Of a stretch of DNA of 64,000 nt, positions 20,247-46,650 are shown in pieces. How positions within the stretch are numbered: the first letter of the stretch is position 1; every line of letters starts with the position of its first letter. Source of the stretch: Mycobacterium dioxanotrophicus. Lineage in GTDB: Bacteria > Actinomycetota > Actinomycetes > Mycobacteriales > Mycobacteriaceae. Location of the stretch: positions 2,852,001 through 2,916,000 of the forward strand of contig NZ_CP020809.1 of the NCBI RefSeq assembly GCF_002157835.1, written 5' to 3'. The position numbers and the translations under genes are program-made. A model generated the notes under the pieces. It saw only the letters and a list, made by a program, of their open reading frames with translations, was not told where the DNA came from and did no database searches.

Positions 20247-20274
20247 CTGTATCTGGTGTTGCCGCAAAAATTGT

Positions 20275-20359
20275 GTCCGAGGGGGGACTTGAACCCCCAC
20301 GCCCGTTAATAGGGCACTAGCACCTCAAGCTAGCGCGTCTGCCATTCCGCCACTCGGAC
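20275..20359 (-). tRNA. tRNA-Leu (anticodon GAG)
   Basis: Reading the minus strand, GTCCGAG at the 5' end pairs with CTCGGAC at the 3' end. The D-arm (GGCGGAATGGCAGACGC), anticodon stem CTAGC/GCTAG with loop TTGAGGT giving anticodon GAG, a long class II variable arm, and T-arm GGGGGTTCAAGTCCCCC are all present. CCA is not encoded; the next base gives discriminator A. Confidence 0.96.
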
Positions 20360-42277: not shown

Positions 42278-42632
42278 ACTGCCAGCGTAAGCCCTGCGTG
42301 GGGGCGATGAGCGCCTTGTCGCCACGGGTCATTTCGCGCCGCTGAGCCAGTCGCGCCAACAAGCGGGTTGCATAGACCAACTACCCTGTTGATGTGAATG
42401 CTGGTGACCGTCGCGCCTCCGACACCGATCGGCTCGACACCGTGTCGCCGTGTGTGGTGGGCAACGGTGCCGACGATACGAAATACGTGCGGCTGCAATC
42501 TGGTTAGGCCCGGTGACGACGACATTGCCGACAAGATCCGCAAGGTGCCGCTCAAAAGCGCGTGACGCCAAGCGGGTCGGGTCGATCGCGACGACGCGTT
42601 GGGCGTCCACACGTCTGTCTGATGACGACGTA
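42278..42632. other. Intergenic region between the PAC2 gene and the metH leader
   Basis: About 355 bases without a supportable gene. It must hold the divergent promoters for PAC2 (minus) and metH (plus). No convincing -35/-10 pair, B12 box or repeat was found; open frames here have no plausible ribosome site or protein-like composition. Confidence 0.5.
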
Positions 42633-42730
42633 GACTCTTCTGGTCGAGAGGCGTTGCAACGGTTCCGGGTTTCTGCCCGTATCCGCCACGCTCGGCAGAG
42701 TCAAGGACGCCTTCCGTTACGGAAGGAGAG
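42633..42730 (+). promoter_or_regulatory. S-adenosylhomocysteine (SAH) riboswitch candidate in the metH leader
   Basis: The leader fits the SAH riboswitch layout. P1 is GACTCT/AGAGTC (42633-42638 with 42697-42702) continued by GTCGAG/CTCGGC (42643-42648 with 42691-42696). A core GAGGCGTTGCAACGG-like strand leads to a P2 arm closing at CCGCC. A pseudoknot pairs AGGCGT (42649-42654) with ACGCCT (42707-42712). Just after, CCTTCCG-TTA-CGGAAGG (42710-42726) hides the ribosome site GGAAGGAG. The pseudoknot and this hairpin share bases 42710-42712, so ligand binding should free the ribosome site and turn metH on. Confidence 0.62.
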
Positions 42731-42733
42731 TAT

Positions 42734-46489
<3,756 letters not shown>

Positions 46490-46563
46490 GCTCGACCTTC
46501 GTCGGCGGCCGGTGGGCGGAGAAATGCCCACGGCTGTAAGGCTTTCGGGGAGGCCGTGCTCGA

Positions 46564-46585
46564 CACCACCGAAACTTCGGTGGTG
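46564..46585 (+). terminator. Hairpin after metH
   Basis: CACCACCGAA and TTCGGTGGTG form a perfect 10-bp inverted repeat around two bases, 75 nt after the metH stop. There is no T-run, as is common for mycobacterial terminators. Confidence 0.6.
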
Positions 46586-46650
46586 CGAGCCGGTTTGGCG
46601 GCCGGTCGCGCGATGTGACTGGCAGGTGGCCGCTGTGCGAGAATCGCCGG

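Follow-up and report, generated by a model that had tools for sequence, protein, structure and literature searches.

The window, meaning the whole 64,000-nt stretch of DNA analyzed here and the frame of all coordinates below, carries metH, whose product matched the cobalamin-dependent methionine synthase model TIGR02082 with 1728.8 bits (cut-off, 1010.85). Upstream of metH lies a leader in which a -10 box is followed by two helices (P1 and P2), a pseudoknot, conserved unpaired segments, and a hairpin over the ribosome site (Table 1). The TAGACT box stands 6 or 7 bases 5' of P1 in 73 of the 78 element-bearing loci described below, and the transcript probably starts about 6-8 bases 3' of the box, at the first bases of P1. 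P2 consists of CGG (42660-42662) paired with CCG (42683-42685) and an inner 4-bp helix, and the stem of the hairpin, read directly, joins CCTTCCG (42710-42716) to CGGAAGG (42720-42726). The window's own genome also contains ahcY. A tRNA gene lies at 20274-20359 on the reverse strand, and a search of the whole window at the Rfam gathering threshold returned tRNA alone and no riboswitch.

Table 1. Features of the metH leader and its surroundings, in coordinates of the 64,000-nt window
Feature	Position	Strand	Basis or remark
metHa start remnant (older, different metH): promoter, start, codons for about residues 2-37 and 84-108	42354..42541	+	Local alignment
-10 box TAGACT	42631..42636	+	Same box before P1 in 73/78 named loci
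P1, 5' strand GUCGAG	42643..42648	+	Partner 42691-42696
Pseudoknot, 5' strand AGGCGU	42649..42654	+	Partner 42707-42712
Core UGCAA, between pseudoknot strand and P2	42655..42659	+	Same letters as Rfam SAH consensus
P2 arm, CGG/CCG and variable inner helix	42660..42685	+	Two-sided changes
Joining segment CCACG	42686..42690	+	Rfam SAH alignment
P1, 3' strand CUCGGC	42691..42696	+	Partner 42643-42648
AAGG, 5' of pseudoknot strand	42703..42706	+	Rfam SAH alignment
Pseudoknot, 3' strand ACGCCU	42707..42712	+	Last three bases common to the ribosome-site hairpin
Putative expression platform, hairpin over the ribosome site	42710..42726	+	Pairing in mycobacterial rows, energies
Shine-Dalgarno sequence AAGGAG	42723..42728	+	Sequence
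metH, cobalamin-dependent methionine synthase, 1251 aa, GTG start at 42734	42734..46489	+	TIGR02082
Further metHa fragments, downstream of metH	46510..46598	+	Alignment to metHa loci

A preliminary description of this DNA had drawn P1 as a long helix between 42633-42648 and 42691-42702. Its inner part, GTCGAG (42643-42648) with CTCGGC (42691-42696), was retained, and P1 is 6 bp only; the outer part was too long, overlapping the -10 box and lacking conservation, and the long helix was rejected. The pseudoknot AGGCGT/ACGCCT, the hairpin covering the ribosome site, and their overlap at 42710-42712, all of which had been proposed at the same time, were found on direct reading at the positions listed in Table 1.

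Checked against the Rfam SAH covariance model (RF01057), the leader, which the preliminary description had assigned to this type, matched over all 78 model positions (42640-42719, forward strand; E 0.0054), but its 27.1 bits, visible at a relaxed threshold, lie under the gathering score of 37 bits, which is an annotation threshold and not a property of the RNA. P1 and P2 follow the layout of the class, both in the full-length Rfam alignment and in the pair counts of the leader alignment given below, and the unpaired core (UGCAA, CCA.G, CAA.G) is conserved in the window except at two positions, 42689 and 42705. The leader resembles RF01057 members in P1, P2, the pseudoknot, the UGCAA core, the spacing of the blocks, and SAH-recycling target genes. 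It differs from them in its score, in pseudoknot letters that are changed pair by pair, in a shorter linker between P1 and the pseudoknot (7 model positions missing), in swapped letters at 42689/42705, and in a ribosome-site hairpin that is nearly fixed in mycobacterial rows. We attribute the low score to the shorter linker and to the pseudoknot changes, which count as mismatches in a model that holds no pseudoknot pairs. The SAM/SAH riboswitch model RF01727 had no match at E up to 10 within 42300-42900.

The score was not accepted as sole proof of membership, because chance-like sites in related genomes reach 29.3 bits. In its own 8.08-Mb genome, the window held the best RF01057 match (27.1 bits, E 0.018), and the next three scored 20.9-22.1 bits. 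Sub-threshold matches (E up to 0.1) were present in 165 of 198 genus genomes, none of which had a match over the cut-off. A second match occurred in 10 of these 165 genomes, at up to 29.3 bits; the six that were examined were all spanned by long reading frames, five did not have the core pattern, and none had metH, ahcY, metK, or adenosine deaminase as a neighbor; these six look like chance. Best matches per genome were fetched from 30 genus genomes, and every one of them fell at the beginning of metH. It is this position, together with conservation as one site per genome (175/198), that excludes chance as an explanation for the metH leader.

In a check that the preliminary description had named, homologous leaders retained both P1 and the pseudoknot, and two-sided changes appeared once the leader alignment was extended across the order. 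Within the mycobacteria, P1 and the pseudoknot are nearly fixed (only one of the six P1 pairs varies, and the pseudoknot pairs are all invariant), covariation is limited to P2, and the ribosome-site hairpin, also nearly fixed, is paired in 99.3% of cells over 49 rows. The broader alignment, A3, extends to the order's other genera, which contribute 40 loci to its 54 rows. Every row fitted a segment pattern that itself demands UGC[A/G][A/G]C, GCCACG, and AAGG. In A3, 98.6% of cells were paired, compared with 27.8-41.8% in slid controls, and two-sided changes were seen in 7 of 17 pairs, with P1, P2, and the pseudoknot all represented; none of 500 shuffles reached the observed pairing values, although relatedness can inflate this shuffle test. 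P1 pair 3, for example, changed from CG to UA in two rows. The pseudoknot was paired in 99.4% of cells over the 54 rows, its pair 6 being CG in 37 rows, UA in 16, and mismatched in one, and its pairs 1, 2, and 6 were changed on both sides relative to the Rfam consensus line. The predicted pseudoknot is thereby supported by one clearly two-sided pair within the actinobacteria and three relative to that consensus line. Position 42689 is C (consensus G) and 42705 is G (consensus C), a complementary swap, and by comparison with the Rfam consensus line the two may form a swapped long-range pair. A proteobacterial comparison for these positions through plasmid-borne ahcY yielded no RF01057 match over the cut-off in two Acinetobacter regions and one Nonomuraea region.

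The element preceded metH in 78 of 80 named loci encoding close MetH relatives, nearly all of which are titled mycobacteria, with one Tsukamurella and a few generic or doubtful metagenome bins. The metH leaders of the remaining two, both metagenome bins (L093 and L104), have lost the aptamer and kept a mutated ribosome-site hairpin; with R1, a model built from 49 mycobacterial leaders, they scored 24.5 and 33.9 bits, compared with at least 84 bits in the other loci searched in that set. R1 matched once in each of 175 of the 198 genus genomes, the match in G059 being weak (E 0.007). Across the order, it located the element in 27 of 85 genera and 113 of 397 genomes. A broader model, R2, used for the class-level search, gave matches in 54 of 296 genomes and 14 of 114 genera; the match in G707 (E 8e-4) falls within a reading frame, has no pseudoknot, and was taken as false, leaving 53 of the 54. 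Fifteen of the 40 loci from the order's other genera passed the RF01057 cut-off, as did 7 of the 11 class-search loci scored with Rfam (30 loci were fetched). One locus, L223, has the same pseudoknot letters as the window and a MetH 84% identical to the window's, and scored 41.3 bits with RF01057. Loci of this kind, L223 included, form a bridge from the window to accepted RF01057 members.

Some occurrences stood apart from this distribution. L054, whose contig title names a Bifidobacterium breve metagenome bin, has a mycobacterial-type metH and leader, and is probably a mislabelled bin. Tsukamurella sp. TY48 (L062) carries the element with a MetH about 90% identical, and the same combination, again at about 90% identity, was seen in another genus of the family (G412), where two other sampled genomes of that genus gave far weaker MetH matches. 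The occurrences in L062 and G412 suggest transfer.

The genes that follow the element in relatives belong mostly to SAM/SAH metabolism. In the 40 order loci outside the genus, the element precedes metH in 21 (including L171), ahcY in 12 (including L158), and adenosine deaminase in two (L163, where the gene is split over two frames, and L173). Single loci have metK (L165), a MOSC-domain protein (L177), and a methyltransferase (L182) after the element, one has its gene context unsettled (L184), and in another (L152) the similarity of the next open frame to MetH is confined to the C-terminal part of the enzyme (47.8% over 138 residues), and this may be a shortened or broken metH. A locus from another genus of the window's family (L240), whose first codons resemble those of L182, may be a second methyltransferase context. 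The adenosine deaminase, metK, MOSC-domain, and methyltransferase-like contexts reach beyond the usual SAH regulon. Among the 30 class-search loci fetched, nine of them from the genus itself, 29 had metH and one (L230) had ahcY. The ahcY, metH, metK, and adenosine deaminase contexts in relatives fit SAH sensing, and the assignment of the metH leader to the SAH type in the preliminary description is supported jointly by the model match, the homologous leaders, and these gene contexts.

Relatives also differ in the structure that follows the aptamer. At metH loci, the hairpin incorporating the terminal bases of the pseudoknot strand sits on or before the ribosome site, and no T-run was found in the metH copies of relatives or at the window hairpin. 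At ahcY loci, a longer hairpin that includes AAGG and the pseudoknot strand was present in 9 of 12 leaders, and in 5 of 12 the hairpin was followed by four or more consecutive T; a looser T-rich rule was satisfied by 7 of the 11 first tested. The five ahcY leaders with the same aptamer, a terminator-like hairpin, and the run of at least four T (L153, L161, L168, L172, and L174) are probably a transcriptional version. Because a formed pseudoknot blocks the hairpin in both platforms, ligand should switch the gene on, and the metH and ahcY platforms are predicted to share this polarity.

Folding of the window's leader was consistent with a competition between two nearly equal structures, the pseudoknot helix at -8.3 kcal/mol and the hairpin at -7.8 kcal/mol being balanced. 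In the RNA from 42643 to 42740, the unpaired probability of 42721-42726 was 0-0.01, and it rose to 0.43-0.95 when the pseudoknot bases were reserved. When the RNA was extended to 42746 or 42760, the minimum-energy fold exchanged P1 for a helix with metH codons 2-4, and in the RNA to 42760 with the pseudoknot bases reserved, the ribosome site was largely paired elsewhere (unpaired probability 0.08-0.96, with four of six bases below 0.3). This competing helix joins AGAGGCGUU (42647-42655) to AACGCCUCU in codons 2-4 (42737-42745); it is the 9-base complement of AACGCCTCT in the codons to AGAGGCGTT in the aptamer that wins in the minimum-energy fold. Eight of 79 leaders (the window and 78 others) have such a 9-base complement, compared with about 0.3 expected for at least 9 from base shuffles, a comparison in which the leaders are related to one another. 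With 8 bases or fewer in the other 71, and given this relatedness, the helix was not adopted in the mechanism; in these folding models, codons 2-4 could possibly act as a decoy strand.

A control mainly at the level of transcription, for instance through Rho or an intrinsic terminator and not through ribosome access, is the alternative that the longer hairpins and T-runs of the ahcY relatives bring to mind. The window hairpin, however, lacks a T-run and occupies the ribosome site immediately 5' of the start codon, like the metH copies of relatives, and we hold such control to be unlikely at this locus. The specificity of the same fold could also have shifted, with the leader responding not to SAH alone but to SAM, to SAM as well as SAH, or to adenosine: some relatives precede metK and adenosine deaminase, metK is reported absent from the proteobacterial SAH regulon as described in PMC4239095, and 42689 and 42705 depart from the Rfam consensus. 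Yet agreement with that consensus extends over the UGCAA core and most of the remaining conserved positions, the two changes resemble a swapped pair, and 33 of the 40 order loci target metH or ahcY, both of which that article reports for SAH riboswitches, and a shifted specificity appears quite improbable to us. The strong conservation of the leader could also serve a protein; on such a reading the leader would bind no metabolite and would instead be a binding site for a protein, or else a hairpin that covers the ribosome site constitutively. We give this very little credence, as the homology to a ligand-binding class extends into the unpaired core and the gene contexts belong mostly to SAM/SAH metabolism.

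The reading we favor, with a probability of roughly 0.85, is that the metH leader belongs to the SAH class of riboswitches, working at the level of translation and turning the gene on; both ligand binding and the direction of control are what we infer from sequence. In such a switch, the hairpin would form in the absence of SAH and metH would be poorly translated. As SAH, the by-product of methylation, accumulates, it would stabilize the pseudoknot, the hairpin would lose its three basal pairs, and the ribosome site would open. More MetH would then be made, returning homocysteine to methionine.

The distribution of the element within the genus follows that of two different MetH enzymes. Young et al. 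2015 (PMC4428469) describe, as MetH switching in actinomycetes, how a conventional MetH took the place of an older enzyme, MetHa, at the same site in most rapid growers; species such as M. tuberculosis and M. leprae retained MetHa, and M. marinum still has a fragment of it. Of the 198 genus genomes, 23 had no R1 match, and 20 of these were searched for metH; all 20 gave some match and 16 a match over the cut-off. Leaders were read in 15 of these 16 (the start of the other, L200, is truncated). The MetH of the 15 element-free loci was 32.5-34.8% identical to the window's, and their leaders had a -10-like box a few bases 5' of the start codon; a box so near the start suggests that the element-free metH is probably leaderless. 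In the order sample, all 40 element-bearing genus genomes had a MetH at least 89% identical, and the element-free genus genomes G029 and G538 had far weaker MetH matches (E 2e-173 and 6e-176).

Traces of the older gene were visible around the window's metH. The upstream segment aligned locally to L198 with a score of 100 (best of 20 shuffles, 32), and tblastn gave 64% identity over 25 amino acids in this remnant. Downstream, 46557-46598 shared 37 of 42 bases with L190 (score 59, compared with 28 for 15 shuffles), and the whole downstream segment stood clearly above its own shuffles in 11 of 15 comparisons with metHa loci and did not in four. The divergent neighbor gene was the same in 76 of the 78 named loci, 30 of which retained a recognizable metHa-start remnant before the element. 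Since metHa remnants flank the window's metH on both sides, the riboswitch probably arrived through the MetH switching described by Young et al., and the simplest reading of these alignments is that promoter, riboswitch, and metH settled as one inside metHa. In this lineage, the element would have entered with conventional metH, displacing an older actinobacterial and probably leaderless metH at the same site. We consider it rather probable that the mycobacterial replacement of MetH also exchanged the way the gene is controlled, with promoter, SAH riboswitch, and metH entering as a cassette inside the probably leaderless metHa, such that methionine synthesis would be SAH-induced in nearly all species with the new enzyme and species that kept MetHa would be without this control. 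One family of the order sample (f16) counts against a strict link between element and enzyme, as its MetH is 73-78% identical and it had no match in a search with R1 only.

Parts of this picture are already in print. The preliminary description had called a SAH riboswitch notable for a mycobacterium, a claim that is weakened by the survey of Sun et al. 2013 (PMC3766115), in which SAH riboswitches were also identified in Mycobacteriaceae. These are of the same class and from the same bacterial family, and they are very likely the same leaders as those described here; the main text of that survey devotes one sentence to them, without gene, structure, or mechanism, and places the targets in its supplement. 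Presence in the family is thus already published, and the sensor class is known. The proteobacterial SAH regulon, as described by Leyn et al. 2014 (PMC4239095), has ahcY and metF as its core and includes metH in Comamonadaceae, with metK not listed as a member. The SAM/SAH riboswitch (RF01727) has a related ligand but differs in context, having been described, according to PMC2864571, only before metK and in Rhodobacterales, and in its lack of a match in the window's metH leader. The MetH switching of PMC4428469 shares with our observations the replacement of MetHa by conventional MetH and differs in that here the replacement probably included a riboswitch; neither SAH nor adenosylhomocysteine is mentioned in the main text of that article. 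SAH and S-adenosylhomocysteine are likewise absent from an M. smegmatis cobalamin paper (PMC8088520) and an M. tuberculosis cobamide review (PMC12713380), and SAH from an M. smegmatis transcriptome paper (PMC5741613). Among the matches listed, none dealt with a SAH riboswitch on mycobacterial metH, in a search whose scope lay mostly outside the subscription literature. The structure, the two actinobacterial platforms, and the link to MetH replacement were not found in the literature searched.

For the mycobacteria, these results place a putative riboswitch on a central enzyme of one-carbon metabolism in most of the species sampled (175 of 198 genomes), where the Rfam threshold had missed it. 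They also offer a testable reason why the regulation of MetH would differ between mycobacteria with the two types of the enzyme. In the relatives, one aptamer appears to serve two platforms of the same predicted polarity, terminator-like at ahcY and a ribosome-site hairpin at metH. The arrangement in the window suggests a joint arrival, in which the acquired enzyme came with an RNA sensor of its own.
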